This document shows, piece by piece, positions 41,215 through 57,917 of a DNA stretch of 64,000 bases. The stretch lies in NCBI RefSeq assembly GCF_005080685.1, contig NZ_CP039371.1, forward strand, positions 4,588,001 to 4,652,000, in the 5' to 3' direction. A model generated the notes under the pieces. It had not been told where the DNA came from. It ran no database searches and saw only the letters and a program-made list of their open reading frames with translations. This DNA is from Pseudomonas putida (GTDB lineage: Bacteria; Pseudomonadota; Gammaproteobacteria; Pseudomonadales; Pseudomonadaceae). The translations under genes and the position numbers were made by a program. How positions within the stretch are numbered: position 1 is the stretch's first letter; each line of letters opens with the position of its first letter.

Positions 41215-41973
41215 TCAACCCTTGGCGGACACCTTGGGCTTTTTCTGCAGCAGGTGCGAGAACACCGCATGCAGGTCGTCCGAGGCGCTCTCCTCGTCGA
41301 GGTTGAGCTTGCTGTCGATGTGGTCCATGTGGTGCATCATCAGGCTCACCGCCTGCTGCGCGTCACGGGCCTCGATGGCGTCGATCAACTGCATGTGCTC
41401 GTCATACGAGCAATGCGAGCGGTTGCCGCTTTCGTACTGGGCGATGATCAACGAGGTCTGCGATACCAGGCTGCGCTGGAAGCTCACCAGCGGCGCATTG
41501 CCGGCGGCCTCGGCCAGCTTCAGGTGGAACTCGCCCGACAGGCGAATGCCCGCGCCGCGGTCACCACGCGAGAAGCTGTCGCGCTCCTCGCGCACCATCT
41601 GGCGCAGTTCGTTGAGTTGTTCGGCAGTGGCGTGCTGCACGGCCAGCTCGGTGATGGCGCGTTCGACCATGCGCCGCGAGAAGAACACCTGGCGTGCCTC
41701 TTCGACGGTAGGGCTGGCCACCACTGCGCCACGGTTGGGACGCAACAGCACCACGCTCTCGTGGGCCAGGCGCGACAGCGCACGACGGATGATGGTGCGG
41801 CTGACGCCGAAGATCTCGCCCAGCGCTTCCTCGCTCAACTTGGTGCCAGGCGCCAGGCGCTGCTCGAGGATCGCCTCGAAAATATGCGCATAGACGATGT
41901 CGTCCTGGGTACCGCTACGGCCAGCCTTGCCGGTGCGCGCAGGTTTTTTCAGAGGTTGCAGCTGTTCGTTCAT
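41215..41973 (-). CDS. GntR family regulator, FCD domain, candidate purine-degradation regulator
   Basis: The product is 252 residues with a winged helix (IVYAHIFEAILEQRLAPGTKL to VSRTIIRRALSRLAHE) and a C-terminal FCD domain. The start at 41973 (MNEQLQPLKK) is preferred over an in-frame ATG at 42087, which would put the operator inside the gene. It is divergent from a purine permease, and each gene has a TTGTAYACA-type palindrome upstream. The same palindrome recurs at hiuH/puuE and glcG/gcl, so this protein is the best candidate for the shared regulator. FCD regulators commonly bind such short palindromes. The effector may be a pathway intermediate. Confidence 0.9.
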   Translation of the reverse strand: MNEQLQPLKKPARTGKAGRSGTQDDIVYAHIFEAILEQRLAPGTKLSEEALGEIFGVSRTIIRRALSRLAHESVVLLRPNRGAVVASPTVEEARQVFFSRRMVERAITELAVQHATAEQLNELRQMVREERDSFSRGDRGAGIRLSGEFHLKLAEAAGNAPLVSFQRSLVSQTSLIIAQYESGNRSHCSYDEHMQLIDAIEARDAQQAVSLMMHHMDHIDSKLNLDEESASDDLHAVFSHLLQKKPKVSAKG

Positions 41974-42079: not shown

Positions 42080-42089
42080 TTGTACACAG
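42080..42089. promoter_or_regulatory. TTGTACACAG operator upstream of gntR (41215)
   Basis: Nine of ten bases match the TTGTAYACAA palindrome. It lies 106 bases before the gntR start and suggests autoregulation. Confidence 0.55.
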
Positions 42090-42178
42090 GCGGAACCCTT
42101 TCTGCAGGCCGCCCTTTACTTATATAGCCGTTGTGCCGGGGTTTGTGCGAACAAAAGATAAAACATTATTTGCATTCT

Positions 42179-42188
42179 TTGTACACAA
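42179..42188. promoter_or_regulatory. TTGTACACAA operator upstream of the purine permease
   Basis: Perfect match to TTGTAYACAA, 138 bases before the permease start. Confidence 0.65.
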
Positions 42189-42326
42189 AAGCATAATCCA
42201 GCGAGCAACTTCCTGACCAACAAGTCAACAAATCGGTCGGACGTCTGCCTTCCCTCGCGGAGCCACCAAGTGCATAGCGCAGGACACTGGCTCCAGAACA
42301 ACAAGAAAGACTTGAGGAGTACCGCT

Positions 42327-43676
42327 GTGGAAAGCCGCAAATCCGAAGCCCCTACGCTGGATCTCGCGCCCCCGCTCGAAACGAGCTGGCTGGAGCGGAT
42401 TTTCAAACTCAAGCAACACGGCAGCACCGTACGCACCGAACTGATCGCCGGGGTGACCACCTTCATCACCATGGCGTACATCATCTTCGTCAACCCCAAC
42501 ATCATGGCCGACGCCGGCATCGACCACGGCGCGGCGTTCGTCGCCACCTGCATCGCCGCCGCGCTGGGCTGCCTGCTCATGGGCCTGTACGCCAACTGGC
42601 CGGTGGGCCTGGCACCGGGCATGGGCCTGAACGCATTCTTCACCTACACCGTGGTCGGCACCATGGGCTACAACTGGGAAACGGCGCTGGGCGCAGTGTT
42701 CGTCTCGGGCGTGTTGTTCATGTTCCTGACCTTGTCGAAAGTGCGCGAATGGTTGCTCAACAGCATCCCGGTCAGCCTGCGCCATGCCATGGGAGCCGGC
42801 GTCGGATTGTTTCTCGGACTGATCGGCCTGAAGACCGCGGGCATCATCGTCGACAGCCCGGCCACGCTGATCAAGCTCGGCTCGCTGCACGAGCCTGGCC
42901 CGCTGCTGGCGGCGCTGTGCTTCCTGCTGATCGCCATCCTCAGCTACAAACGGGTGTTCGGCGCCATCCTCATCAGCATCATCGGCGTGACCCTGGCCGG
43001 CTGGGGCCTGGGGCTGGTCAAGTTCGGCGGGGTGATGTCGATGCCGCCGAGCCTGGCGCCGACCTGGATGGCCATGGATGTCGCCGGGGTGTTCAACGTC
43101 AGCATGATCAGCGTGGTGCTGGCGTTTCTGTTCGTGCACATGTTCGATACCGCCGGCACGCTGATGGGCGTCGCACAACGCGCCAACCTGGTCGCGCCGG
43201 ACGGACGCATCGAGAACCTGTCACGGGCCTTGAAGGCTGATAGCGCCTCGAGCGTGTTCGGCGCCGTGGTCGGCGTGCCACCGGTGACCAGCTATGTGGA
43301 GAGCGCGGCGGGTGTCGCGGCGGGTGGTCGCACTGGCCTGACGGCTGTGGTGGTCGGCGTGTTGTTCGTCGCGGCGATGTTCTTCGCCCCGCTGGCCGGG
43401 ATGATTCCGGCCTACGCCACCGCTGGCGCACTGATCTACGTGGCGATGCTGATGATGGGCAGCATGGCGCACATCCATTGGGACGAAGCCACCGACAGCA
43501 TTCCGGCGATCGTCACGGTGATCATGATGCCGCTGACCTTCTCGGTGGCCGATGGCATTGCCCTGGGCTTCATCAGCTATGTGGCGTTGAAGGCAGGTAC
43601 TGGCAAGTACAAGGAGATCTCGGCCAGCCTGTGGGTGTTGTGCGCGATCTTCATCGCCAAGTTCGTGTTTCTCTGA
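42327..43676 (+). CDS. NCS2-type purine permease (AzgA/AGZA-like)
   Basis: The product is 449 residues with about twelve to fourteen membrane segments. TTFITMAYIIFVNPNIM near the N-terminus and GMGLNAFFTYTVVGTMGY mark the AzgA/PbuG-like branch that takes up adenine, guanine or hypoxanthine. The start is GTG at 42327, seven bases after GAGGAG; an ATG at 42270 has no such site. It stands with its divergent GntR regulator between aqpZ and hiuH. Confidence 0.93.
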   Translation: MESRKSEAPTLDLAPPLETSWLERIFKLKQHGSTVRTELIAGVTTFITMAYIIFVNPNIMADAGIDHGAAFVATCIAAALGCLLMGLYANWPVGLAPGMGLNAFFTYTVVGTMGYNWETALGAVFVSGVLFMFLTLSKVREWLLNSIPVSLRHAMGAGVGLFLGLIGLKTAGIIVDSPATLIKLGSLHEPGPLLAALCFLLIAILSYKRVFGAILISIIGVTLAGWGLGLVKFGGVMSMPPSLAPTWMAMDVAGVFNVSMISVVLAFLFVHMFDTAGTLMGVAQRANLVAPDGRIENLSRALKADSASSVFGAVVGVPPVTSYVESAAGVAAGGRTGLTAVVVGVLFVAAMFFAPLAGMIPAYATAGALIYVAMLMMGSMAHIHWDEATDSIPAIVTVIMMPLTFSVADGIALGFISYVALKAGTGKYKEISASLWVLCAIFIAKFVFL

Positions 43677-43693
43677 ACCCAGCCACACACAGA

Positions 43694-43717
43694 CGAAGGG
43701 CGCCTCGGCGCCCTTCG
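43694..43717 (+). terminator. Terminator-like hairpin after the permease
   Basis: CGAAGGGCGCC and GGCGCCCTTCG pair around a two-base centre, 18 bases after the stop; only TTCGTTTCC follows, so strength is uncertain. Confidence 0.6.
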
Positions 43718-43730
43718 TTCGTTTCCATTG

Positions 43731-43833
43731 CCTGTACCGGCCCTTTCGCGGGACAAGCCCGCTCCCACAGGATGACACCAGGCCGGAGGACTGCGATGAA
43801 CCTGTGGGACCGGGCTTGCCCGCGAAGAGGCCA
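43731..43833. repeat. REP pair, GCGGGCTTGTCCCGCGAA family
   Basis: CCCTTTCGCGGGACAAGCCC and a diverged inverse copy (GACCGGGCTTGCCCGCGAAG) lie between the convergent permease and hiuH genes. Confidence 0.8.
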
Positions 43834-43858
43834 GCACAGCCCCCAAAACCCATAGACG

Positions 43859-43888
43859 AAAAAAAGCCCGCCAGTGTGAGAGCGGGCC
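43859..43888 (-). terminator. Rho-independent terminator of hiuH
   Basis: On the minus strand GCCCGC (43887-43882) pairs with GCGGGC (43871-43866), followed by TTTTTTT. It lies 32 bases after the hiuH stop. Confidence 0.85.
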
Positions 43889-43919
43889 AAGGACCTACGA
43901 AGATTCTTCTAGCGACCAA

Positions 43920-44273
43920 CTAGCTTCCACGATAGGTCGAATAGCTGTACGGCGAGATCAGCAGCGGCACGTGGTAATGCTCCTGCTTCTCGTCGATGCC
44001 GAAACGCAGCACCACCACATCCAGAAATGCGGCTTCCGGCAACTGCACGCCACGGCCACGGTAGTAATCGCCAGCGCTGAACTGCAGTTGATAGACGCCG
44101 GTGCGATAGTCGTCACCCTGCAGCAGCGGCGCATCGACGCGGCCATCGCTGTTGGTCAGGGCAGTGTTGACCAGCTCAAGCTGCTGGCCTTCGACACGAT
44201 ACAGCTCGACCTTGATCGCGCTACCCGGGCAGCCGTGAGCGGCATCCAATACGTGTGTGGTCAAACGTCCCAT
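43920..44273 (-). CDS. hiuH: 5-hydroxyisourate hydrolase
   Basis: HiuH (transthyretin-like) hydrolyses 5-hydroxyisourate, made by urate oxidation, to OHCU. The product is 117 residues, without a signal peptide. The N-terminal LTTHVLDAAHGCPG and C-terminal SPYSYSTYRGS (ending YRGS) are the active-site motifs of the family. It is divergent from puuE; a TTGTACACAA operator lies 110 bases upstream. Confidence 0.97.
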   Translation of the reverse strand: MGRLTTHVLDAAHGCPGSAIKVELYRVEGQQLELVNTALTNSDGRVDAPLLQGDDYRTGVYQLQFSAGDYYRGRGVQLPEAAFLDVVVLRFGIDEKQEHYHVPLLISPYSYSTYRGS

Positions 44274-44382
44274 TTGCTCGTCGCCTCTTGTTCAATCTGT
44301 GGGCAAAAAATACACAGCCCTCGCACCAGCACAGTGCATGCGATGGGCAGGAATGGCTTCATTAAGACATTTCAAAAAAATA

Positions 44383-44392
44383 TTGTACACAA
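44383..44392. promoter_or_regulatory. TTGTACACAA operator upstream of hiuH
   Basis: Perfect TTGTAYACAA palindrome within the 387-bp hiuH/puuE divergent region. Apart from the two operators this AT-rich space shows no gene. Confidence 0.65.
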
Positions 44393-44576
44393 TTTTTTAC
44401 TCCCTTCTGTCGCACGCCCCATAAAACGGCCATCAGTCGCAAATACAGGCTCTATCTGCACGCCAAGGTTATTAGCTGACCAAGTAGGCAGGTTTCTTGC
44501 ACAGGTTTCAGCGCTGCAGCTGGAGCGACAAAAGGGCAGAAATGCGGAAAAACAGGCTTACAAAAGATTTCAGAAG

Positions 44577-44586
44577 TTGTATACAA
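44577..44586. promoter_or_regulatory. TTGTATACAA operator upstream of puuE
   Basis: Perfect ten-base palindrome, 74 bases before the puuE start. Confidence 0.7.
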
Positions 44587-44660
44587 TCAGCCCATCCGGT
44601 GGTGCGACATCCCGACGCGGCCCGCCCACCCCGCACTAACGCACAAGAAGGAAGATAGCA

Positions 44661-45587
44661 GTGAGCGCTGACTACCCTCGCGACCTGATCGGTTACGGCA
44701 ACACCCCACCTCACCCGCAATGGCCGGGCAACGCCCGCATCGCGCTGTCTTTCGTGCTCAATTACGAAGAAGGTGGCGAGCGCAACATCCTGCATGGCGA
44801 CAAGGAGTCCGAGGCCTTCCTTTCCGAAATGGTCGCCGCGCAACCGCTGCAAGGCGCGCGCAACATGAGCATGGAGTCGCTCTACGAATATGGCAGCCGC
44901 GCCGGCGTGTGGCGCCTGCTCAAGCTGTTCAAGGACAGCGGCGTGCCGCTGACCATCTTCGCCGTGGCCATGGCCGCCCAGCGCCACCCCGACGTGATCC
45001 GCGCCATGGTCGAGGCCGGCCACGAGATCTGCAGCCACGGCTACCGCTGGATCGACTACCAGTACATGGACGAGGCCCAGGAGCGCGAGCACATGCTCGA
45101 AGCCATCCGCATCCTCACCGAACTCACCGGCGAGCGCCCACTGGGCTGGTACACCGGTCGCACCGGCCCGAACACCCGCCGCCTGGTAATGGAGGAAGGT
45201 GGCTTCCTCTACGACAGCGACACCTACGACGACGACCTGCCCTACTGGGAGCCGAACAACCCTACCGGCAAGCCGCACCTGGTGATCCCCTACACCCTCG
45301 ACACCAACGACATGCGCTTCACCCAGGTGCAGGGCTTCAACTGCGGCGAGCAGTTCTTCCAGTACCTCAAGGACGCCTTCGACGTGCTGTATGCCGAGGG
45401 CAGCGAAGCACCGAAGATGCTCTCCATCGGCCTGCACTGCCGCCTGGTCGGCCGCCCCGCTCGCCTGGCCGCGCTCAAGCGCTTCATCGACTATGCCAAG
45501 AGCCATGAGCAGGTCTGGTTCGCCCGTCGCGTGGACATCGCCCGCCACTGGCACGCCACCCACCCGTACAAGAAAGAGAACGCCTGA
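44661..45587 (+). CDS. puuE: Allantoinase PuuE (polysaccharide deacetylase family)
   Basis: PuuE hydrolyses allantoin to allantoate and is unrelated to the amidohydrolase-type allantoinase. The product is 308 residues. Family marks are YGNTPPHPQWPGNARIALSF, VNYEEGGE (here LNYEEGGERN), HGYRWIDYQ and LGWYTGRTGPNTRRL. The start is GTG at 44661 after AAGGAAG. Its TGA overlaps the uraD ATG (ATGA). Confidence 0.97.
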   Translation: MSADYPRDLIGYGNTPPHPQWPGNARIALSFVLNYEEGGERNILHGDKESEAFLSEMVAAQPLQGARNMSMESLYEYGSRAGVWRLLKLFKDSGVPLTIFAVAMAAQRHPDVIRAMVEAGHEICSHGYRWIDYQYMDEAQEREHMLEAIRILTELTGERPLGWYTGRTGPNTRRLVMEEGGFLYDSDTYDDDLPYWEPNNPTGKPHLVIPYTLDTNDMRFTQVQGFNCGEQFFQYLKDAFDVLYAEGSEAPKMLSIGLHCRLVGRPARLAALKRFIDYAKSHEQVWFARRVDIARHWHATHPYKKENA

Positions 45588-46102
45588 TGACCGCCTTCAA
45601 GACTCTCAAGCCATCGACCCTGAGCCGTGACGCCTTCGTCCAGGCCTTTGCCGACATCTACGAGCACTCGCCGTGGGTCGCCGAAAAGGCCCATGACCTG
45701 GGCCAACCGGGCGAGCTGGACGAGATCGAGGCGCTGCACCAGCGCATGAGCGACATCCTGTTGAGCGCCGGCCATGCCGAGCAGCTGGCGCTGATCAACG
45801 CCCACCCGGACCTGGCCGGCAAGGCGGCGATCCAGGGCGAGCTGACCGAATCGAGCACCAACGAGCAGGCCGGCGCCGGCATCCACCAATGCACCGCCGA
45901 GGAGTTCGCCCGCTTCACCGAACTGAACGATGCCTACAAGGCCAAGTTCCAGTTCCCGTTCATCATGGCGGTTAAAGGCAGCAATCGGCACCAGATCCTC
46001 GCTGCCTTCGAAAAACGCATTCACAACGATGCCGACACCGAGTTCAAGGAAGCCCTGGCGCAGATCAACCTGATCGCCCTGTTCCGCCTGTTGCAGCTTT
46101 GA
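45587..46102 (+). CDS. uraD: OHCU decarboxylase UraD
   Basis: UraD decarboxylates 2-oxo-4-hydroxy-4-carboxy-5-ureidoimidazoline to S-allantoin. The product is 171 residues. The active-site HPDLAGKAA (H73) and the C-terminal RIHNDADTEFKEALAQINLIALFRL pattern fit the family. It is translationally coupled to puuE. In other pseudomonads allantoicase follows next; here 109 bases without a gene lead to allA. Confidence 0.96.
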   Translation: MTAFKTLKPSTLSRDAFVQAFADIYEHSPWVAEKAHDLGQPGELDEIEALHQRMSDILLSAGHAEQLALINAHPDLAGKAAIQGELTESSTNEQAGAGIHQCTAEEFARFTELNDAYKAKFQFPFIMAVKGSNRHQILAAFEKRIHNDADTEFKEALAQINLIALFRLLQL

Positions 46103-46211
46103 GGGCCAGGCGCAGGCCTGGCCCGAGTGCGTGACGCGAACGTACCCAGGGCCTGACCTGCCAGCCGGTCCACCCCATTCAAGAACGACGAACAATAGAA
46201 GAGAGACCCGC

Positions 46212-46715
46212 ATGCGCACCCTGATGATCGAGCCCCTGACCAAAGAAGCCTTCGCCCCCTTCGGTGACGTGATCGAAACCGACGGCAGCGACCACTTCAT
46301 GATCAACAACGGTTCGACCATGCGCTTCCACAAGCTCGCCACGGTCGAAACCGCCGAGCCCGAGGACAAGGCCATCATCAGCATCTTCCGCGCCGACGCG
46401 CTGGAAATGCCCTTGACGGTCCGCATGCTGGAACGCCATCCGCTGGGCAGCCAGGCTTTCATCCCGCTGCTCGGCAACCCCTTTCTGATCGTGGTCGCGC
46501 CAGTTGGCGATGCACCTGTATCAGGTTTGGTCCGAGCCTTCCGCAGCAACGGCAGGCAGGGCATCAATTACCATCGCGGCGTCTGGCACCACCCGGTGCT
46601 GACGATCGAAAAGCGGGATGACTTCCTGGTGGTTGATCGCAGTGGTTCCGGCAACAACTGCGACGAGCATTACTTCACCGAGGAACAGATGCTGATCCTC
46701 AATCCCCACCAATAA
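46212..46715 (+). CDS. allA: Ureidoglycolate lyase AllA
   Basis: AllA splits ureidoglycolate to glyoxylate and urea. The product is 167 residues, a cupin. Typical segments are LMIEPLTKEAFAPFGDVIE, NYHRGVWHHPVL and the C-terminal NCDEHYF. The start at 46212 follows AGAGAGAC; an in-frame ATG at 46131 adds 27 residues of low-complexity sequence and is rejected. The glyoxylate it makes is the substrate of Gcl, encoded at 54225. Confidence 0.95.
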   Translation: MRTLMIEPLTKEAFAPFGDVIETDGSDHFMINNGSTMRFHKLATVETAEPEDKAIISIFRADALEMPLTVRMLERHPLGSQAFIPLLGNPFLIVVAPVGDAPVSGLVRAFRSNGRQGINYHRGVWHHPVLTIEKRDDFLVVDRSGSGNNCDEHYFTEEQMLILNPHQ

Positions 46716-46758
46716 GAAAAGGTCGATCATCAAAGGTGATTGGCATGAGGTACATACT

Positions 46759-48078
46759 GTGGAAGCACACCTTCACGAATGGCTGAACCTGAGCATTCGC
46801 TGGGTTCACATGATCACCGGTGTCGCCTGGATCGGTGCATCGTTCTACTTCGTCTGGCTGGAAAACAACCTCAACCGCAGCAACCCGCGCGATGGGTTGT
46901 CGGGTGACCTCTGGGCCATCCACGGCGGTGGTATCTACCACCTTGAGAAGTACAAGCTGGCACCGCCGAAAATGCCCGAGAACCTGCACTGGTTCAAATG
47001 GGAAGCCTATTTCACCTGGATGTCCGGGATCGCCCTGCTGTGCGTGGTGTTCTACTGGAACCCGACCCTGTACCTGCTTGCCCCCGGCAGCACCCTGAGC
47101 GGTGCCGAGGGCGTGGCCATCGGTATCGGTTCGCTGGTGGCTGGCTGGTTCATCTACGACCTGCTCTGCGACTCGCCACTGGGCAAACGCCCGGCGCTGC
47201 TCGGCGGCGTGCTGTTCGTCCTGATCATCGCCGCGTGCTGGGGCTTCAGCCAGGTGTTCAGCGGCCGTGGCGCGTACCTGCACACCGGCGCGATCATCGG
47301 CACCATCATGGTCGGTAACGTGTTCCGCATCATCATGCCGGCCCAGCGCCAACTGGTGGCTGCGATCGAGAACAACACCACCCCTGACCCACGCCTGCCG
47401 GCCAAAGGCCTGCTGCGTTCGCGCCACAACAACTACTTCACCCTGCCGGTGCTGTTCATCATGATCAGCAACCACTTCCCGAGCACCTATGGCAGCCAGT
47501 ACAACTGGCTGATCCTGGCCGGCATCGCGGTAGCGGCAGTCCTCATCCGTCACTACTTCAACACCCGCCACGACAGCAACAAGTACGCCTGGACCTTGCC
47601 GGTCGGCGCCCTGGCGATGATCTGCCTGGCCTACGTCACCGGCCCCAAGCCAATGCCAACCAGCCCAGAGCAAGCCGCGGCGAAGATCGAGTACCAGCCG
47701 TTGCCCGCCACCGCCGTCGGCGGCAAGACCGCGGCGCAGCTGCGCGAAGAGGAGGCTGCCAAGCCCGCCGAGGCGCCTGCACCGGCCCAGGCCGAAGCCA
47801 CGGCCCAGGTTGGCGGCGACGCCTTCGACAAGATCCACAATGTCATCCAGGAACGCTGCACCGTGTGCCACTCGTCCAAGCCGACCAGCCCACTGTTCAG
47901 CGCCGCCCCTGCCGGCGTGATGTTCGACACCCCGCAGCAGATCCAGGCCCAGGCCGCGCGCATCCAGGCGCAAGCGGTCGCCAGCCAGATCATGCCGCTG
48001 GGCAACATCACCCAGATGACCACCGAGGAGCGCAAGCTGGTCGGTGACTGGATCGCCAAGGGCGCCCCGGTGAACTGA
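46759..48078 (+). CDS. puuD: Urate hydroxylase PuuD with cytochrome c domain
   Basis: PuuD is a membrane urate oxidase that passes electrons to a fused cytochrome c rather than to oxygen directly. The product is 439 residues. The first 300 hold about eight membrane segments (DUF989-like: WVHMITGVAWIGASFYF, then SNHFPSTYGSQYNW). An Ala/Pro/Glu linker follows, then one haem c site C367-x2-C370-H371 (CTVCH). The start is GTG at 46759, eight bases after GAGG. No separate soluble uricase gene is in the window. Confidence 0.95.
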   Translation: MEAHLHEWLNLSIRWVHMITGVAWIGASFYFVWLENNLNRSNPRDGLSGDLWAIHGGGIYHLEKYKLAPPKMPENLHWFKWEAYFTWMSGIALLCVVFYWNPTLYLLAPGSTLSGAEGVAIGIGSLVAGWFIYDLLCDSPLGKRPALLGGVLFVLIIAACWGFSQVFSGRGAYLHTGAIIGTIMVGNVFRIIMPAQRQLVAAIENNTTPDPRLPAKGLLRSRHNNYFTLPVLFIMISNHFPSTYGSQYNWLILAGIAVAAVLIRHYFNTRHDSNKYAWTLPVGALAMICLAYVTGPKPMPTSPEQAAAKIEYQPLPATAVGGKTAAQLREEEAAKPAEAPAPAQAEATAQVGGDAFDKIHNVIQERCTVCHSSKPTSPLFSAAPAGVMFDTPQQIQAQAARIQAQAVASQIMPLGNITQMTTEERKLVGDWIAKGAPVN

Positions 48079-48107
48079 AACACGACTGCAAGGCGACACC
48101 GCTCCCC

Positions 48108-48155
48108 GTGTGGGAGCGGGTTTGCCTGCGAGAAGGCCGGCACTGCCGGCCTTTG
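48108..48155. repeat. Single REP unit followed by terminator hairpin
   Basis: GTGTGGGAGCGGGTTTGCCT is one REP half. It runs into AAGGCCGGC-ACT-GCCGGCCTTT (48133-48154), a likely terminator of puuD. Confidence 0.75.
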
Positions 48156-48287
48156 TCTCAAGCGATACGCAACAAGCAAGCATCGAGCGTCACGCTTTGC
48201 CACGGGAACCCCAGGTTTCGTCATGAAGCCTGCCACGTAAAGCCTGGCGCTTGGATCCGAGAATAAAAACAAGACTCGAGGTGCTGC

Positions 48288-49643
48288 ATGTCCCAGTTAC
48301 GCCAAGCGTACATTCCCGTCGCGCCCCCGCGACAGCCCCTGCCCCTGTTCCAACTGATCCTGGTTGGCCTGCAACATGTGCTGCTGATGTACGGCGGCGC
48401 CATCGCCGTCCCCCTGATCATCGGTCAGGCCGCCGGCCTTTCCCGTGAAGAAGTCGCTTTCCTGATCAACGCCGACCTGCTGGTCGCCGGCGTCGCCACC
48501 ATCATCCAGTCGTTCGGTTTCGGCCCGGTCGGTATCCGCATGCCCGTGATGATGGGCGCAAGCTTCGCCGCCGTCGGTAGCATGGTCGCCATGGCCGGCA
48601 TGCCCGGCGTGGGCCTGCAGGGGATCTTCGGCGCGACCATCGCCGCCGGCTTCTTCGGCATGCTGATCGCGCCGTTCATGTCCAAGGTCGTGCGCTTCTT
48701 CCCGCCCCTGGTCACCGGTACGGTGATCACCTCGATCGGCCTTTCGCTGTTCCCGGTCGCGGTCAACTGGGCCGGTGGCGGTGCCGAGGCCGAAACCTTC
48801 GGTTCGCCCATCTACCTGCTGGTGGCCAGCCTGGTGCTGGCCGTGATCCTGTTGATCAACCGCTTCATGCGTGGCTTCTGGGTCAATGTCTCGGTACTGG
48901 TGGGCATGGGCCTGGGCTACGTGCTGGCCGGCTCCATCGGCATGGTCGACCTCTCCGGCCTGGGCCAGGCGCCTTGGCTGCAGGTGGTCACGCCGCTGCA
49001 CTTCGGCATGCCGACCTTCAGCCTGGCGCCGATCCTGTCGATGTGCCTGGTGGTGGTGATCATCTTCGTCGAGTCCACCGGCATGTTCCTCGCCCTGGGC
49101 AAGGTCACCGACCGTGAGGTAACGCCGGGCATGCTGCGGCGCGGGCTGCTGTGCGACGCTGGCGCATCGTTCGTGGCCGGCTTCTTCAACACCTTCACCC
49201 ACTCCTCGTTCGCCCAGAACATCGGCCTGGTGCAAATGACCGGGGTACGCTGCCGCTACGTCACGGTCATGGCCGGCGGGCTGCTGATCCTGCTCAGCCT
49301 GCTGCCCAAGGCGGCCTACCTGATCGCCTCGATTCCGCCGGCGGTGCTGGGCGGCGCGTCCATCGCCATGTTCGGCATGGTCACCGCCACCGGCATCAAG
49401 ATTCTCCAGGAAGCGGACATCAGTGACCGACGCAACCAGCTGCTGGTGGCAGTGAGCGTCGGCTTCGGCCTGATCCCGGTGGTGCGACCGGAGTTCTTCG
49501 CCCAAATGCCCCAGTGGATGGAACCCATCACCCACAGCGGCATCGCCATGGCGACCATCAGCGCCCTGGTGCTCAACGTGCTGTTCAACATCCTCGGTGG
49601 CGCCGACCGCGCCCGGCACAACGAGGCCTGTCAGCAACATTGA
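48288..49643 (+). CDS. uacT: NCS2 urate/xanthine permease (UacT/PbuX-like)
   Basis: The product is 451 residues with about fourteen membrane segments. The NAT signature is clear: FFNTFTHSSFAQNIGLVQMT, and GLQHVLLMYGGAIAVPL in the first helix. This branch takes up urate or xanthine, unlike the AzgA-type permease at 42327. It follows puuD and precedes tandem outer-membrane channels, giving both membranes a purine route. The choice between urate and xanthine is not settled by the sequence. Confidence 0.92.
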   Translation: MSQLRQAYIPVAPPRQPLPLFQLILVGLQHVLLMYGGAIAVPLIIGQAAGLSREEVAFLINADLLVAGVATIIQSFGFGPVGIRMPVMMGASFAAVGSMVAMAGMPGVGLQGIFGATIAAGFFGMLIAPFMSKVVRFFPPLVTGTVITSIGLSLFPVAVNWAGGGAEAETFGSPIYLLVASLVLAVILLINRFMRGFWVNVSVLVGMGLGYVLAGSIGMVDLSGLGQAPWLQVVTPLHFGMPTFSLAPILSMCLVVVIIFVESTGMFLALGKVTDREVTPGMLRRGLLCDAGASFVAGFFNTFTHSSFAQNIGLVQMTGVRCRYVTVMAGGLLILLSLLPKAAYLIASIPPAVLGGASIAMFGMVTATGIKILQEADISDRRNQLLVAVSVGFGLIPVVRPEFFAQMPQWMEPITHSGIAMATISALVLNVLFNILGGADRARHNEACQQH

Positions 49644-49779
49644 GGCAAGGGCGGCCCTGTCGGCCGCCCCACCCCATCCGCCACACACGCAACGGCCTCG
49701 GCTCACTCGACGTGCACCGTACGGGGCTCGCTTGCGCGACAAAAAAAACGCCAACAACGACAAGTCCGGGAATCACGAC

Positions 49780-50565
49780 ATGAAGCGCATCACCTCGTCC
49801 CTGCTGTTGGGCAGCAGCCTGCTGGCCACCCTCCCCGCCCACGCTGGCGAATGGCTGCAGTGGCACGGCGAAAGCCTCACCTACCTGTACGGCAAGGATT
49901 TCAAGGTCAACCCGCGTATCCAGCAGACGATCACCTTCGAGCACGCCAACAAATGGAAGTACGGCGACACGTTCATGTTCGTCGACAAGATCTTCTACAA
50001 CGGCCAGGCCGACGCCAGCAAAGGCGTCACCACCTACTACGGCGAATTCAGCCCGCGCCTGTCGTTCGGCAAGATCTTCGACCGCAAGCTGGCTTTCGGG
50101 CCGGTCAAGGATGTGCTGCTGGCCATGACCTACGAACGCGGCGAAGGCGACAACGAGGCCTACCTGATCGGCCCCGGCTTCGACCTGGCCATCCCCGGCT
50201 TCAACTATTTCACCCTCAACTTCTACGTGCGCAACACCGAAGGCAGCCGCCCGGGCGACAACGTCTGGCAGATCACCCCGGCGTGGTCCTACACCATCCC
50301 GATGGGCAGATCCGACATTTTGATCGACGGTTACATGGACTGGGTCGTGGACAACGACCAGACCCGCCGCGGCACCTACCACGCCAACCTGCAGTTCAAC
50401 CCGCAGGTCAAGTACGACCTGGGCAAGGCCCTGAACCTGGGCGCCAAGCAACTGTACGTGGGCATCGAGTACAGCTACTGGAAGGACAAGTACGGCATCG
50501 ACAGCCGCGGCAACGTCGACAGCAACCAGAGCGTGACCAGTGCCCTGGTGAAGGTGCATTTCTAG
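49780..50565 (+). CDS. Tsx-like nucleoside-specific outer membrane channel, copy 1
   Basis: The product is 261 residues with a signal peptide (MKRITSSLLLGSSLLATLPA, cleaved near AHA-GEW). The mature part is a small beta barrel of the Tsx/OmpK family (LQWHGESLTYLYGKDFKV; ending SALVKVHF with terminal Phe). It is about two thirds identical to the next gene. Start at 49780 is chosen for the signal peptide. It probably brings nucleosides or purine bases across the outer membrane for UacT. Confidence 0.9.
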   Translation: MKRITSSLLLGSSLLATLPAHAGEWLQWHGESLTYLYGKDFKVNPRIQQTITFEHANKWKYGDTFMFVDKIFYNGQADASKGVTTYYGEFSPRLSFGKIFDRKLAFGPVKDVLLAMTYERGEGDNEAYLIGPGFDLAIPGFNYFTLNFYVRNTEGSRPGDNVWQITPAWSYTIPMGRSDILIDGYMDWVVDNDQTRRGTYHANLQFNPQVKYDLGKALNLGAKQLYVGIEYSYWKDKYGIDSRGNVDSNQSVTSALVKVHF

Positions 50566-50690
50566 GAAACTGACCGAACGCCCAACTTTGTTCCAGCGTG
50601 CTCCAGGACGGAGCACTTGAGGCCAGGCGCGCAAGTGAGTAATCTGCGCGCCCCCTCGATCAGGGCAGGACGGATCCTGCCCGCGTTAAC

Positions 50691-50704
50691 TGACCGCTCG
50701 GTCA
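50691..50704. promoter_or_regulatory. RutR-like palindrome upstream of the second tsx gene
   Basis: TGACCG-CT-CGGTCA is a perfect palindrome and, with flanks, matches 11 of 14 fixed positions of the RutR consensus TTGACCA-N2-TGGTCAA. It lies 216 bases before the gene. The rest of the 354-bp gap holds no gene. Confidence 0.55.
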
Positions 50705-50919
50705 ATGAATACGGGCGGTTGGTGGATGTGTTGCCAGCCTGAAAGACCCTTTTCATCGGTGCAGAACGACGTCGAGCAGGACGGTTGCCGCCAACCCGGA
50801 AAGTTGGCGCAACTCTTGCCAAACAGCTGTGGCCAATCGAAAAAAGCTGACTAAAAAGACAAAAAACGGCGCCATCAACAAGCGCTGACAACTGATCACC
50901 CTAGGGAGCGACTTCAACA

Positions 50920-51702
50920 ATGCGTATCATCAACAGCCTGATTCTCGCGGGCGGCCTGCTGGCCTGTGGCACCTCTTTCGCCGGCGACCTGCTGCAGTGG
51001 CAGAACAACAGCCTCACCTACCTGTGGGGCAAGAACTTCAAGGTCAACCCCGAGACCCAGCAGACCTTCACCTTCGAGCACGCCGACGCGTGGAAGTACG
51101 GCGACAACTTCATCTTCGTCGACAAGATCTTCTACCAGGGCAAGAAGGACGCCAGCAACGGCCCGAACACCTACTATGGCGAGATCAGCCCGCGCCTGTC
51201 GTTCGGCAAGATCTTCGACCAGAAGCTGGAGTTCGGCCCGGTCAAGGACGTGCTGCTGGCGATGACCTACGAGTTCGGCGAAGGTGACACCGAGGCCTAC
51301 CTGATCGGCCCGGGCTTCGACCTGGACATTCCTGGCTTCGACTACTTCCAGCTGAACTTCTACCAGCGCACCACCGATGGCAGCCGCGCCGGTGACAACG
51401 TCTGGCAGATTACCCCGGTCTGGTCCTACACCATTCCGGTCGGCTCTTCCGACGTGCTGATCGATGGCTTCATGGACTGGGTGGTGGACAACGACGAAAA
51501 TCGCCACGGCACCTACCAGGCCAACCTGCACTTCAACCCGCAGATCAAGTACGACCTGGGCAAGGCCATGCACCTGGGCGAGAAGCAGCTGTACGTAGGT
51601 ATCGAGTACGACTACTGGAAGAACAAGTACGGGATCAAGGATTCCGACGCGTTCACCACCGACCAGAACACCGCAAGCCTGCTGGTCAAGGTTCACTTCT
51701 GA
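50920..51702 (+). CDS. Tsx-like nucleoside-specific outer membrane channel, copy 2
   Basis: The product is 260 residues: signal peptide (MRIINSLILAGGLLACGTSF, cleaved near AGD) and a Tsx/OmpK-like barrel (LLQWQNNSLTYLWGKNFKV; ending LLVKVHF). It is a tandem paralogue of the gene at 49780, and most differences are in exposed-looking short segments. A palindromic operator lies upstream at 50691, which the first copy lacks, so the two may be used under different conditions. Confidence 0.9.
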   Translation: MRIINSLILAGGLLACGTSFAGDLLQWQNNSLTYLWGKNFKVNPETQQTFTFEHADAWKYGDNFIFVDKIFYQGKKDASNGPNTYYGEISPRLSFGKIFDQKLEFGPVKDVLLAMTYEFGEGDTEAYLIGPGFDLDIPGFDYFQLNFYQRTTDGSRAGDNVWQITPVWSYTIPVGSSDVLIDGFMDWVVDNDENRHGTYQANLHFNPQIKYDLGKAMHLGEKQLYVGIEYDYWKNKYGIKDSDAFTTDQNTASLLVKVHF

Positions 51703-51728
51703 CCTGAGCATGGGGCTGCTGCGCAGCC

Positions 51729-51796
51729 CTTTCGCGGCACAAGGCCGCTCCTACAGACGAGCGCATCACCTGTAGGAGCGGCCTTGCGCCGCGAAC
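51729..51796. repeat. REP pair, GCGGCCTTGCGCCGCGAA variant
   Basis: TTCGCGGCACAAGGCCGCTC and its inverse lie 24 bases apart, between convergent tsx copy 2 and the DUF808 gene. Confidence 0.8.
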
Positions 51797-51821
51797 CGGG
51801 GTAAAACCCCGGCCATACACC

Positions 51822-52736
51822 TCAAGCCGCGGGCCGAACCACTCGCCACAGTTTCCCGGCAGCAGTCACCACCGCCAGCACCACCGCCCCAGCGACCACT
51901 CCCGCTACCCCATTGAGCAATGCCCCGGTCAACGCCCCGCCGCGCCCTTCGCTGAACGCCTCGATGGCATGATGCAACGGTGCGATCCCGTGCACCAGAA
52001 TCCCGCCACCGACCAGGAACATCGCCGCGGTACCGATCACCGACAGGCTTTTCATCATGTACGGGGCGGCGCGCAGAATGCCGTTGCCGACCGCCTGGAG
52101 CGCCTTCGAGGACTTCTGGGTCATCCACAGGCCCAGGTCATCGAGTTTGACGATGCCCCCTACCAGGCCGTACACGCCGATGGTCATGACGATGGCGATA
52201 CCGGCCAGGACGATGATCTGCTGGGTCAGCGGCGCATCGGCCACGGTGCCCAGGGTGATCGCGATGATTTCGGCCGAGAGGATGAAGTCGGTGCGCACCG
52301 CGCCCTTGATCTTGGCCTTTTCGAAGGCCACCAGGTCGACGTTGGTGTCGGCCACCGCTTCCTTGCGCGCCGCATGCTGCGCCTGGTCTTCTTCCTCGCT
52401 GTGCATGAACTTGTGCGCCAGCTTCTCGAAGCCCTCGAAACACAGGTAGGCACCGCCGAGCATCAGCAATGGCGTGACCGCCCAGGGGATGAAGGCGCTG
52501 ATCAGCAGCGCGGCCGGCACCAGGATCGCCTTGTTGACGAACGAGCCCTTGGCCACCGCCCACACCACCGGAATTTCCCGCTCGGCGCGCACGCCCGTGA
52601 CCTGTTGGGCATTGAGCGCAAGGTCATCGCCGAGCACGCCCGCGGTTTTTTTCGCCGCGACCTTGGTCATCAGCGACACGTCGTCGAGCACCGTGGCGAT
52701 GTCGTCGATCAGTACCAGTAGACTGCTTCCTGCCAT
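51822..52736 (-). CDS. DUF808 family inner membrane protein (YedI-like)
   Basis: The product is 304 residues with several membrane segments. It starts [20 protein letters not shown] and continues [20 protein letters not shown], the conserved DUF808 N-terminus. The function of the family is not known. The start at 52736 gives the family length; a longer frame to 52820 is rejected. It is divergent from the RutR-like regulator. Confidence 0.88.
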
Positions 52737-52867
52737 GTTTGCGCTTTCCAAATGAGTGAATGGGCCCGATTCTAGCCCAAAGCCGCTGCCTTGAGCGCCC
52801 GTTGGGGCCGGTGCTACCATGCCCGATCCCTCTTAGAGGTGGCCAGACACGAGGAAGATCCCCGAAA

Positions 52868-53479
52868 ATGAGCACCATTCGCGAGCGCAACAAGGAACTG
52901 ATCCTGCGCGCGGCCAGCGAGGAATTCGCCGACAAGGGCTTCGCCGCCACCAAGACCAGCGATATCGCGGCCAAGGCCGGCTTGCCCAAGCCGAACGTGT
53001 ACTACTACTTCAAGTCCAAGGACAACCTCTACCGCGAGGTCCTGGAAAGCATCATCGCGCCGATCATGCAGGCGTCGACGCCGTTCAATGCCGACGGCGA
53101 TCCGAAAGAAGTATTGAGTGCGTACATCCGCTCGAAGATCCGCATCTCGCGCGACCTGCCGCACGCATCGAAGGTGTTCGCCAGCGAAATCATGCACGGG
53201 GCGCCGCATCTGTCGCCGAGCCAGGTCGAGCAGTTGAACGAGCAGGCGCGGCACAATATCGAGTGTATCCAGCGCTGGATCGAGCGCGGGCAGATCGCCC
53301 ATGTCGATGCCCATCACCTGATGTTCAGCATCTGGGCCGCGACCCAGACCTACGCCGATTTCGACTGGCAGATCTCGGCGGTGACCGGCAAGGCCAAGCT
53401 GGCCGACAGCGATTACGAGGCGGCGGCCGAGACCATCATTCGCATGGTGCTCAAGGGTTGCGAGCCCGAGGCTGCCTGA
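52868..53479 (+). CDS. rutR: TetR family regulator, RutR-like
   Basis: The product is 203 residues. The N-terminal helix-turn-helix (FAATKTSDIAAKAGLPKPNV then YYYFKSKDNLY) is followed by a C-terminal domain with SRDLPHASKVFASEIMHGAP and MFSIWAATQTYADF, which closely resemble E. coli RutR. RutR represses pyrimidine and purine catabolic genes and responds to uracil or thymine. RutR-like palindromes occur here at xdhA (34131) and before the second tsx gene (50691). Ligand in this organism is unknown. Confidence 0.85.
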   Translation: MSTIRERNKELILRAASEEFADKGFAATKTSDIAAKAGLPKPNVYYYFKSKDNLYREVLESIIAPIMQASTPFNADGDPKEVLSAYIRSKIRISRDLPHASKVFASEIMHGAPHLSPSQVEQLNEQARHNIECIQRWIERGQIAHVDAHHLMFSIWAATQTYADFDWQISAVTGKAKLADSDYEAAAETIIRMVLKGCEPEAA

Positions 53480-53482
53480 GAA

Positions 53483-53520
53483 TCGGCTGTACTGGCCTCT
53501 TCGCGGGCCAGTACAGCCGA
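53483..53520. terminator. Perfect 15-bp inverted repeat between convergent genes
   Basis: TCGGCTGTACTGGCC (53483-53497) and its exact inverse (53506-53520) enclose TCTTCGCG. It lies between rutR and glcG; no T run, so its role as a bidirectional terminator is likely but unproven. The loop recalls a REP core. Confidence 0.55.
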
Positions 53521-53527
53521 TGGAGAA

Positions 53528-53968
53528 TCAGGCCGCTACGCCAGCATCCGCCGTCAACCCCGCCTCCTCGATGGCACTGATCGCACACTGCTCGTCGATA
53601 TCCGACGTATCCCCACTGATCCCCACCGCCCCCAGCACCCTACCGTCCTGACTGCGAATCAGCACGCCACCCGGCGCCGGCACCACCGGCCGTTCACCCA
53701 ATCCATTCAACGCCGCGAAAAACGCCGGCCGCTGCTGCGCGTCCAGCGCCAGCAAGCGTGAGCCCTTGCCCAGGGCAATCGCCCCCCAGGCCTTGCCAAT
53801 GGCCACCTGCGGGCGGATCAGGCTGGCGCCATCCTCGCGCTGCAGGGCCAGCAAATGCCCGCCGGCATCGAGCACTGCCACTGTCAATGGCGCGGCACCG
53901 ATCTTGCGGCCCGCGGCCAGCGCGGCATTCACCAGGCCGACCGCGACATTCAGGTTCAAAGCGTTCAT
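53528..53968 (-). CDS. glcG: GlcG/HbpS family protein
   Basis: The product is 146 residues, soluble, with the GlcG-like pattern VAVLDAGGHLLALQREDGAS, ALDAQQRPAFFAALNG and GAVGISGDTSDIDEQCA. GlcG/HbpS proteins are often next to glycolate or glyoxylate genes; their exact function is not settled, though some bind haem. The start at 53968 follows GAGGACC; an upstream in-frame ATG at 54040 is rejected. It is divergent from gcl with one operator per gene. Confidence 0.88.
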   Translation of the reverse strand: MNALNLNVAVGLVNAALAAGRKIGAAPLTVAVLDAGGHLLALQREDGASLIRPQVAIGKAWGAIALGKGSRLLALDAQQRPAFFAALNGLGERPVVPAPGGVLIRSQDGRVLGAVGISGDTSDIDEQCAISAIEEAGLTADAGVAA

Positions 53969-54049
53969 GCAAAGGTCCTCTTCTTGTTGTGAGAAGCCCT
54001 GAGGGCAGTTGAAAACCGATAGACCAATAGAACACAACAAATCATATTT

Positions 54050-54059
54050 TTGTATACAA
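54050..54059. promoter_or_regulatory. TTGTATACAA operator upstream of glcG
   Basis: Perfect ten-base palindrome, 81 bases before the glcG start. Confidence 0.7.
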
Positions 54060-54189
54060 TAAATTCAAACATACGTATGCGATCCTGCAAACGCCCGTTT
54101 TCATGGGCGCTCTAGCGAAACGTCTTTTCACCGACGAAAACCCATTGACCTGAGCCTCTAGGCGTGAATACACTTTGGCGCAAAGCAAG

Positions 54190-54199
54190 TTGTATACAA
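54190..54199. promoter_or_regulatory. TTGTATACAA operator upstream of gcl
   Basis: Perfect ten-base palindrome, 25 bases before the gcl start, a position suited to repression. Confidence 0.7.
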
Positions 54200-54224: not shown

Positions 54225-56000
<1,776 letters not shown>

Positions 56001-56050: not shown

Positions 56051-56833
56051 ATGCCACGTTTGGCTGCCAACCTGTCCATGCTGTTCACCGAACAGGATTT
56101 CCTGGCCCGCTTCAAGGCGGCCGCCGATGCTGGTTTCAGCGGCGTCGAGTACCTTTTCCCCTACGATTTCGGCGCCGCCGAGATCAAGCAACAACTCGAC
56201 GCCAACGGCCTGACCCAGGTGCTGTTCAACCTCCCTGCCGGCGACTGGGGCAAGGGTGAGCGCGGCATCGCCTGCCACCCCGACCGCATCGAAGAATTCC
56301 GCGCAGGCGTCGACAAGGCCATCGAGTACGCCAAGGTGCTGGGCAACACCCAGGTCAACGCCCTGGCCGGCATCCGCCCGCAAGGCCCGGACTGCGCCAC
56401 CGTGCGCAAGACCTTCGTCGACAACCTGCGCTTTGCCGCCGACAAGTTGAAGGCCGCCGGCATCCGCCTGGTCATGGAAATGATCAACACCCGCGACATC
56501 CCCGGCTTCTACCTGAACACCACCCAGCAAGCCCTGGAGATCCAGGCCGAGGTGGGCAGCGACAACCTGTTCCTGCAGTACGACATCTACCACATGCAGA
56601 TCATGGAAGGTGACCTGGCGCGGACCCTGGAAACCAACCTGCCCCTGATCAACCACATCCAGTTGGCGGACAACCCGGGGCGCAACGAGCCGGGGACCGG
56701 CGAGATCAACTACCGCTTCCTGTTCGAGCACCTGGACCGCATCGGCTACCAGGGTTGGATCGGCGCGGAGTACAAGCCCAAGACCACCACCGAAGCGGGC
56801 CTGGGCTGGCTGAAGACACACAACGCGATCTAA
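56051..56833 (+). CDS. hyi: Hydroxypyruvate isomerase
   Basis: Hyi interconverts hydroxypyruvate and tartronate semialdehyde. The product is 260 residues of the TIM-barrel family, with NLSMLFTEQDFLARF at the start, VMEMINTRDIPGFYL, and the metal-site QYDIYHMQIMEGD and IGAEYKPK. The start at 56051 follows AAGGAGACAACC. It lies 50 bases after gcl in the same direction. Confidence 0.95.
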   Translation: MPRLAANLSMLFTEQDFLARFKAAADAGFSGVEYLFPYDFGAAEIKQQLDANGLTQVLFNLPAGDWGKGERGIACHPDRIEEFRAGVDKAIEYAKVLGNTQVNALAGIRPQGPDCATVRKTFVDNLRFAADKLKAAGIRLVMEMINTRDIPGFYLNTTQQALEIQAEVGSDNLFLQYDIYHMQIMEGDLARTLETNLPLINHIQLADNPGRNEPGTGEINYRFLFEHLDRIGYQGWIGAEYKPKTTTEAGLGWLKTHNAI

Positions 56834-57023: not shown

Positions 57024-57917
57024 ATGGCTAAAATCGGTTTCATCGGCACCGGCATCATGGGCAAGCCCATGGCCCAGAACCTGCAAAAAGCAGGTCACAG
57101 CCTGTTCGTCTCCACCCACCACGACGCAGCCCCGGCCGAGCTGATCGCCGCTGGCGCGGTGGCCCTGGCCAACCCCAAGGAAGTGGCCCAGGAAGCCGAA
57201 TTCATCATCGTCATGGTGCCCGACACCCCGCAGGTCGAGAGCGTACTGTTCGGTGACAACGGCGTTGCCCAGGGCGTAGGCCCGAACAAGGTGGTGATCG
57301 ACATGAGCTCGATCTCGCCCACCGCCACCAAGGCCTTCGCCGAGAAGATCAAGGCCACCGGTGCTGCCTACCTGGACGCCCCCGTGTCCGGCGGCGAAGT
57401 CGGTGCCAAGGCCGCGACCCTGAGCATCATGGTCGGTGGCTGCCCGAATGCCTTCGAACGCGCCCTGCCGCTGTTCCAGGCCATGGGCAAGAACATCACC
57501 CGCGTCGGCGGCAACGGCGACGGCCAGACCGCCAAGGTGGCCAACCAGATCATCGTCGCCCTGAACATCCAGGCCGTCGGCGAAGCACTGCTGTTCGCCG
57601 CCAAGAACGGCGCGGACCCAGCCAAGGTGCGTGAAGCGCTGATGGGTGGCTTTGCCTCGTCGAAGATTCTCGAAGTGCATGCCGAGCGGATGATCAAGGG
57701 CACCTTCGACCCGGGCTTCCGCATCAATCTGCATCAGAAGGACCTGAACCTGGCATTGCAAGGCGCCAAGGAGCTAGGCATCAACCTGCCCAATACCTCC
57801 AACGCCCAGCAAGTGTTCAACACCTGCCAGGCACTGGGTGGCGGCAACTGGGACCATTCGGCGCTGATCAAGGGGCTGGAGCACATGGCCAATTTCTCGA
57901 TCCGCGACGACAAGTAG
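57024..57917 (+). CDS. glxR: 2-hydroxy-3-oxopropionate (tartronate semialdehyde) reductase
   Basis: GlxR reduces tartronate semialdehyde to D-glycerate with NAD(P)H. The product is 297 residues of the beta-hydroxyacid dehydrogenase family: GFIGTGIMGKPMAQNL at the N-terminus, substrate motif DAPVSGGEVGAK, and catalytic lysine in GQTAKVANQIIV. It is separated from hyi by a long REP and has AGAGGTAATC as ribosome site. Confidence 0.97.
   Translation: MAKIGFIGTGIMGKPMAQNLQKAGHSLFVSTHHDAAPAELIAAGAVALANPKEVAQEAEFIIVMVPDTPQVESVLFGDNGVAQGVGPNKVVIDMSSISPTATKAFAEKIKATGAAYLDAPVSGGEVGAKAATLSIMVGGCPNAFERALPLFQAMGKNITRVGGNGDGQTAKVANQIIVALNIQAVGEALLFAAKNGADPAKVREALMGGFASSKILEVHAERMIKGTFDPGFRINLHQKDLNLALQGAKELGINLPNTSNAQQVFNTCQALGGGNWDHSALIKGLEHMANFSIRDDK

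Follow-up and report, generated by a model that had tools for sequence, protein, structure and literature searches.

A palindromic operator and its phased spacing in the predicted UgmR/GclR regulon of Pseudomonas putida

Operators and genes of the window

In this study, a stretch of 64,000 nucleotides of Pseudomonas putida DNA (the window; C1:4588001-4652000 in a genome of 6.6 Mb) was searched for the palindrome TTGTAYACAA, the putative operator of a regulator encoded at 41215. The window holds xdhB, xdhC, guaD, the regulator gene, a permease gene and the urate genes; a glcG/gcl cluster lies about 12 kb from the regulator gene. A sequence-only reading had placed six copies, one per gene, in the three divergent promoter regions gntR/permease, hiuH/puuE and glcG/gcl, and had called five of them perfect. 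All six were found again by pattern search, with perfect copies at 42179, 44383, 44577, 54050 and 54190 and one copy with a single mismatch, TTGTACACAG, at 42080. The regulator gene, the operators (palindromic, listed without strand) and the genes beside them are as follows.

41215..41973, minus strand: UgmR/GclR-type repressor, 252 amino acids from the conserved ATG (Pfam GntR helix-turn-helix and FCD; orthologue alignment; predicted fold)
42080..42089: operator upstream of the repressor gene, one mismatch (pattern search; YTGTGTACAA conserved in loci L013-L078)
42179..42188: operator at the permease promoter (pattern search; in the spacer of the sigma-70-like site 42169-42197)
42327..43676, plus strand: nucleobase permease, Xan_ur_permease family (PF00860 on the open reading frame 42270-43676; GTG start at 42327)
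43920..44273, minus strand: hiuH, 5-hydroxyisourate hydrolase (NCBIfam TIGR02962 over cut-off)
44383..44392: hiuH operator (pattern search; conserved in 197 distinct sequences)
44577..44586: operator of the puuE operon (pattern search; helically phased to 44383 and 44487 across species)
44661..45587, plus strand: puuE, allantoinase (NCBIfam TIGR03212 over cut-off)
53528..53968, minus strand: glcG/HbpS-like protein, divergent from gcl (PF03928 on the open reading frame 53528-54040; start at 53968 chosen by inspection)
54050..54059: glcG operator (pattern search and conserved pairs)
54190..54199: gcl operator, just downstream of a promoter-like site (pattern search and conserved pairs)
54225..56000, plus strand: gcl, glyoxylate carboligase (NCBIfam TIGR01504 over cut-off)

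With up to one mismatch allowed, 14 strand-matches were obtained in the window against 1.14 expected from shuffles, and 14 was reached in 0 of 100 shuffles. The start-to-start spacing of the operators was 99 bp at regulator/permease, 194 bp at hiuH/puuE and 140 bp at glcG/gcl. The 42080 site was accepted for its conservation and not for its sequence, because one-mismatch sites showed no genome-wide excess. It reads CTGTGTACAA in 65 of the 66 P. putida-type loci L013-L078 and TTGTGTACAA in L037, and its partner lies 97–99 bp away. This statement covers L013-L078; the 14 loci L079-L092 are arranged differently and carry one site close to the regulator. The most likely start of the regulator gene is 41973, the conserved start (MNEQLQP...), and not the GTG at 42087. 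The 42080 site would therefore lie about 107 bp upstream of the gene.

The products of xdhB, xdhC and guaD act before urate. No site with up to one mismatch was found between 29766 and 42080 in the window, and these three genes have no operator close upstream. The regulon therefore seems to begin at urate, which would fit urate as the effector.

The regulator and its sites in the genome

The 41215 protein matched PF00392 with 62.2 bits (cut-off 27) and PF07729 with 83.4 bits (cut-off 24.3). Orthologues at seven named loci, aligned from the conserved start, were 91–98% identical, and the protein was 100% identical to that of P. entomophila COR5, to which the genome, in the P. putida group, is close. 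The C-terminal domain in the predicted structure (mean predicted local distance difference test score 76) consists of six helices, at residues 90-114, 117-135, 141-157, 160-180, 190-201 and 205-221, followed by a separate low-confidence helix at 234-242. A fold search matched the structural model to chains of Atu1419 with 22–24% identity; it was used for the domain group only and does not exclude families off its list. By its domains and predicted fold, the regulator belongs to the VanR group of FCD (PF07729) proteins in the GntR superfamily.

Genome G511 was taken as P. aeruginosa, since its PykF was identical in 468 of 470 residues to P. aeruginosa PykF (7oo1). Its regulator was 78.4% identical over 250 amino acids. 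The gene order guaD-regulator-permease-hiuH/puuE was common to the window and G511, and the permease between (42327..43676 in the window) was 82% identical over 449 amino acids. G511 carries an imperfect and a perfect palindrome at its own regulator gene, a pair with a spacing of 182 bp at hiuH/puuE, and further palindromes at a later permease and at gcl. Identity and gene order make the 41215 protein orthologous to UgmR (PA1520) of P. aeruginosa, which supports the earlier proposal that this FCD regulator is the binder. UgmR shares with it the neighbourhood and the targets (urate genes and gcl cluster). It is reported to keep gcl and the urate genes repressed in the absence of urate; binding in vitro and derepression by urate are reported for P. 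aeruginosa only (PMC12694930).

The 41215 protein was also matched by description, family and position to GclR (PP_4283) of P. putida KT2440, reported as a GntR repressor of gcl and glxR (PMC9206389, PMC13357446). GclR is described as lying about 12 kb from the gcl cluster, as linked to xanthine metabolism and as inactivated in strains evolved on ethylene glycol (PMC13357446, PMC9206389). It is known from that evolution work, and a purine regulon with its operators is not described in the GclR passages covered. In P. umsongensis GO16, where gcl is under another regulator, deletion of the counterpart reportedly had no effect on growth on ethylene glycol (PMC13357446).

The UgmR and GclR reports thus support the single regulon of purine uptake, urate breakdown and glyoxylate disposal proposed from the DNA, which was correctly rediscovered and is mostly known rather than new. 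The regulon accounts for the link of purine carbon and nitrogen use with the removal of glyoxylate, the toxic end product, and it bears on the loss of GclR in P. putida strains evolved on ethylene glycol. Three points go beyond the earlier reading: two permease operators, a sigma-54-like promoter between the hiuH and puuE operators, and phased operator spacing.

HpxS of enterobacteria has a role in purine catabolism. It is likened to the regulator by description, as a FadR-subfamily member with an operator of the GT-N2-AC type (PMC4494728). FCD operators of this type are described as common to several family members (PMC4494728), and a paralogous GntR/FCD regulator might read the palindromes instead of, or besides, the 41215 protein. 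The regulator query had at least 16 matches in its own genome (16 of 45 candidates scored), and PA0120 is listed with a binding site upstream of gcl from systematic evolution of ligands by exponential enrichment (PMC12694930). The best own-genome paralogue among those listed was only 49% identical, however, the sites tracked UgmR-linked genes and orthologues, and a ugmR mutant of P. aeruginosa is reported to express gcl-cluster genes at a raised level (PMC12694930). A paralogue as reader is therefore considered very unlikely.

Both strands of the whole genome together gave 22 perfect matches, compared with 5 for a reversed control pattern. One-mismatch matches numbered 73 and 60, against 73 and 74 for the control, showing no excess. 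Chance as the source of the perfect sites was rejected on their excess over both the window shuffles and the genome-wide reversed control; it was not rejected for one-mismatch sites, whose genome-wide count did not exceed the control. The sequence-only reading had held that many random matches genome-wide would speak against the operator; such matches were seen at one mismatch but not among perfect sites.

The 22 strand-matches correspond to 13 places: five in the window, two conserved upstream of permeases, and six others. The genome scan proposed earlier thus added two operators beyond the window. One, at C1:4657030, lies 145 bp upstream of an NCS1-type permease gene, 5 kb past the window; the other, at C1:5734920, lies 78 bp upstream of an NCS2-type permease gene, 1.1 Mb away. 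Conservation was investigated in the 30 best orthologous loci per permease, own genome included. In the 400 bp upstream of the gene, all 30 NCS1-type loci and 29 of the 30 NCS2-type loci had a perfect site, the exception having one mismatch. Both permease operators are, on this conservation, taken as true regulon members and are new here. In four P. putida-type loci (L389-L392), a one-mismatch palindrome also precedes the conserved permease operator, always by 103 bp. A literature search on the operator text gave no bacterial regulon among the matches listed.

The six other perfect places (C1:334206, 3921925, 4178189, 4670033, 5896846 and 6145152) lie inside frames or beside genes without evident link and were set aside as probable chance matches. 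They were judged from frames, with Pfam applied to one neighbouring frame at each of two places. The palindrome at C1:4670033 adjoins a FliK-like frame (flagellar hook-length control).

Operator spacing, promoter elements and proposed looping

A pair of perfect palindromes 171–231 bp apart, as at hiuH/puuE, was found in 309 of 398 genomes of the genus. The spacing was measured in 151 of the 309 (73 and 78 from two listings). It was 179–184 bp in 37 genomes, 193–196 bp in 71 and 203–207 bp in 41, with 215 and 218 bp once each and the gaps empty. G377:C3:408685, with two TTGTGCACAA arms at a spacing of 230, and G204:C68:7082, with one TTGTGCACAA arm at a spacing of 204, were left out as other loci. 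By locus, 233 sources gave 207 pairs and 197 distinct sequences, and 26 loci had no pair (contig end, other gene order, L109). All 197 sequences had spacings of 179–184, 192–196, 203–207 or 215–218 bp with nothing between, in classes 11 to 12 bp apart. The outer operator-to-gene distances in the same loci scattered over many values.

The number of spacing changes was estimated on a FastTree tree of puuE and hiuH coding sequence. A hiuH start was recognised in all 197 sequences, the PuuE start was missing in 11 of the 207 pairs, and the tree held 186 rows. At least 24 changes of phase class and at least 55 changes of exact spacing were counted. Among changes of at least 5 bp between the hiuH and puuE operators, taken as the mean of 50 parsimony draws, 26.5 of 27.4 differed from a multiple of 11 by at most 2 bp. 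On this measure, the puuE operator-to-gene interval scored 20.4 of 29.6 and the hiuH operator-to-gene interval 10.4 of 21.7. At least eight class changes fell in disjoint clades with support of at least 90. With chance set at 5 of 11 residues, p was about 2e-8 for 26 of 27 and about 0.002 for 8 of 8.

In genomes with the genus codes g4, g9 and g12, 35 of 36 spacings were 180–184, 193–194, 205 or 206 bp; the 36 exclude the first match of G511, G415 and G477, which were taken as other loci, and operator flank and distance from the regulator, rather than gene calls, served to place the other-genus spacings at hiuH/puuE. The g9-coded genome G518 is an odd member of its group, as its regulator (95%) and PykF (94%) are close to those of the window, unlike other g9 genomes.

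The glcG/gcl operators showed the same behaviour. The TTGTATACAA pair was found 111–171 bp apart in 269 of the 398 genomes, and 73 of the 269 were measured (G090 duplicates counted once): 127–130 bp in 13 and 138–140 bp in 60. Among 54 distinct rows from 55 sources, four of which (L256-L259) carry other genus codes, the spacing was 127–130 bp in 13, 138–140 bp in 40 and 149 bp in one. All large spacing changes (6.0 of 6.0) were of 10 or 11 bp. A perfect pair 111–171 bp apart occurred in 1 of 17 g9 genomes, namely G518, which looks like g1. Both loci share a register of 7 modulo 11 (128 and 139; 183, 194, 205 and 216); as a single comparison, this could be chance.

The promoter elements in the three regions were investigated by pattern. 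Two were listed.

44487..44501, plus strand: sigma-54-like promoter GG-N10-GC toward puuE, between the two operators (pattern; conservation in 179 rows)
54145..54174, plus strand: sigma-70-like promoter of gcl, TTGACC-18-TACACT (promoter pattern)

The puuE strand of the middle block at hiuH/puuE reads AGGCAGGTTTCTTGCA. The element was recognised in 181 of the 197 sequences (16 without), and 179 were used for conservation; in these, GGCA was 100% and TTGC 99–100% conserved. The GG-N10-GC pattern occurred in 29 of 100 window shuffles and is not rare alone, so the sigma-54-like call rests on conservation. The distance from the middle element to the puuE operator was 64–65, 74–76, 86–88 or 97–99 bp, in steps of 11 bp, and that to the hiuH operator was 108–109, 115–121 or 130 bp, also in steps of 11. 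The sequences suggest a conserved sigma-54-like promoter phased to both operators. In the regulator/permease region, a weak GG-N10-GC core with three mismatches lies at 42204 on the minus strand, pointing to the regulator gene. The sigma-70-like match 42169-42197 near the permease is the single match in its region, the same number as in shuffles. At glcG/gcl, GTGTATTCA and GGTCAAT blocks recurred by eye in many rows.

From these distances, operator spacing is helically phased, which is new here as far as searched; no description of such phasing was found in the literature searched, including the UgmR and GclR passages, which is not proof that none exists. Several results weigh against phasing or against contact between the operators. 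Phased changes are also frequent in the puuE outer interval itself (20.4 of 29.6), and with this stricter background p was about 6e-4 for 26 of 27 and about 0.05 for the minimal 8 events. G489 (g9) had a spacing of 201 bp. The g15 spacings (133, 138 three times, 158 twice, 159, 164 and 169 bp) showed no such register, and the regulator/permease pair, at 97–99 bp, lies outside the 11-bp register. The glcG/gcl pair of P. aeruginosa (G511) is 157 bp apart with one imperfect site and no phasing. Both half-distances at hiuH/puuE are phased to a third element, so that operator-to-operator contact is not isolated.

The spacing clusters could also reflect shared ancestry together with a local bias toward gains or losses of about 11 bp, without selection on phase. 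This agrees with the unphased g15 spacings and with changes of 10–13 bp being common in the puuE operator-to-start interval too, and the event numbers hang on a two-gene FastTree tree in which eight disjoint clades reach support 90. Changes of 3–8 bp, however, frequent in the control intervals, were almost absent between the operators, and hiuH/puuE and glcG/gcl behaved alike. By eye, the alignment showed indels at three separate positions in unrelated sequence. Ancestry without selection is considered quite unlikely.

UgmR might alternatively act as independent dimers by simple blocking, with the phasing due to other proteins that have to bind on one face of the helix, such as sigma-54 RNA polymerase, its enhancer-binding activator (possibly NtrC) and a bending protein. 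The conserved sigma-54-like element with its two phased half-distances fits this explanation, as do the permease, glcG and gcl operators, which lie in or near promoter-like elements. In P. stutzeri, an ntrC mutant is reported to be impaired on uric acid (PMC8443478), and Suvorova 2015 counted 71 of 100 FadR-type divergons that have a regulator gene and two sites among those with presumably independent sites (PMC4494728). The puuE operator, however, lies downstream of the presumed sigma-54 start and still moves in 11-bp steps, which an upstream activator would not require; an activator could therefore explain the phasing on the hiuH side but not on the puuE side. The same steps were seen at glcG/gcl, where no sigma-54-like site was found in the window. 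Independent dimers are thus regarded as a rather unlikely explanation.

The phased spacing was read as pointing to repression by DNA looping, as shown for Atu1419; looping is given about even odds. Atu1419 of A. fabrum is reported as a tetrameric VanR-type FCD repressor of 10-bp palindromes, ATGTATACAT, with a loop seen by electron microscopy (PMC7797058). It resembles UgmR in its six-helix FCD domain, its 10-bp palindrome and a divergent region that holds two palindromes, there with a spacing of 190 bp. It differs in its low identity in the fold match, its pathway and its effector, and the tetramer was shown for Atu1419 and is presumed for UgmR. Phasing or looping is not mentioned in the UgmR literature covered.

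It is considered fairly probable that the palindrome is the operator of the 41215 VanR-type FCD repressor, released by urate and looping at hiuH/puuE and glcG/gcl. Without urate, a repressor dimer would occupy each operator, beside or inside promoter elements. The bound dimers would shut off import, urate breakdown from hiuH onward and the glyoxylate carboligase pathway. At hiuH/puuE and glcG/gcl, two operator-bound dimers would touch and the intervening DNA would loop, trapping the promoters, including the sigma-54-like promoter of the puuE operon. Urate would free the repressor dimers from the operators. In this mechanism, the sites, conservation, orthology and phasing come from this analysis, and binding, repression and the urate effector come from the P. 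aeruginosa and P. putida literature; we infer the tetramer, the loop and sigma-54 control.

The more specific proposal that repressor dimers loop around the sigma-54 promoter, with hiuH operator, promoter and puuE operator in one register across much of Pseudomonas and the geometry reused at glcG/gcl, is given an even chance. If looping is true, a half-turn insertion should weaken repression and a full turn should not. UgmR would then be a further VanR-type FCD looper beside Atu1419, with looping that silences a sigma-54 promoter from both sides. The phased spacings would be a large natural data set, from hundreds of species, on DNA-loop geometry in vivo, with an apparent repeat of about 11 bp.

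Remaining genes of the two clusters

The other genes of the urate and gcl clusters were identified as follows.

45587..46102, plus strand: uraD, OHCU decarboxylase (NCBIfam TIGR03164 over cut-off)
46131..46715, plus strand: allA, ureidoglycolate lyase (NCBIfam NF002949 over cut-off, match from residue 28; the true start is probably near 46212)
46759..48078, plus strand: membrane-type urate oxidase (Pfam PF06181)
48288..49643, plus strand: xanthine/urate-type permease (NCBIfam TIGR03173 over cut-off; Pfam PF00860)
56051..56833, plus strand: hyi, hydroxypyruvate isomerase-like (named by position and literature; 82% for the P. aeruginosa gene)
57024..57917, plus strand: glxR, tartronate semialdehyde reductase (NCBIfam TIGR01505 over cut-off)
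58125..59399, plus strand: ttuD/glxK-type glycerate kinase (NCBIfam NF041176 below cut-off; 79% for the P. aeruginosa gene at the matching position)
59396..60811, plus strand: pykF, pyruvate kinase (NCBIfam TIGR01064 over cut-off; best PDB match 7oo1)

A second gcl was found in the same genome at C1:4154373-4156142 (L094), divergent from a LysR-like frame and followed by hyi- and glxR-like genes. No palindrome with up to one mismatch was present in 1.5 kb upstream of it. A similar arrangement, with gcl divergent from TtdR, is described for P. umsongensis GO16 (PMC13357446). The hyi-like product of L094 was 98.5% identical over 260 amino acids to that of the window hyi, which hints at a recent duplication or exchange between the two gcl clusters.

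A RutR-like TetR regulator, below the family cut-off, is encoded at 52760-53479, adjoining glcG, and occupies the same place in P. aeruginosa. PA1504, a P. aeruginosa TetR protein with a RutR-type domain, has been suggested as a candidate for the allantoin response (PMC12694930).

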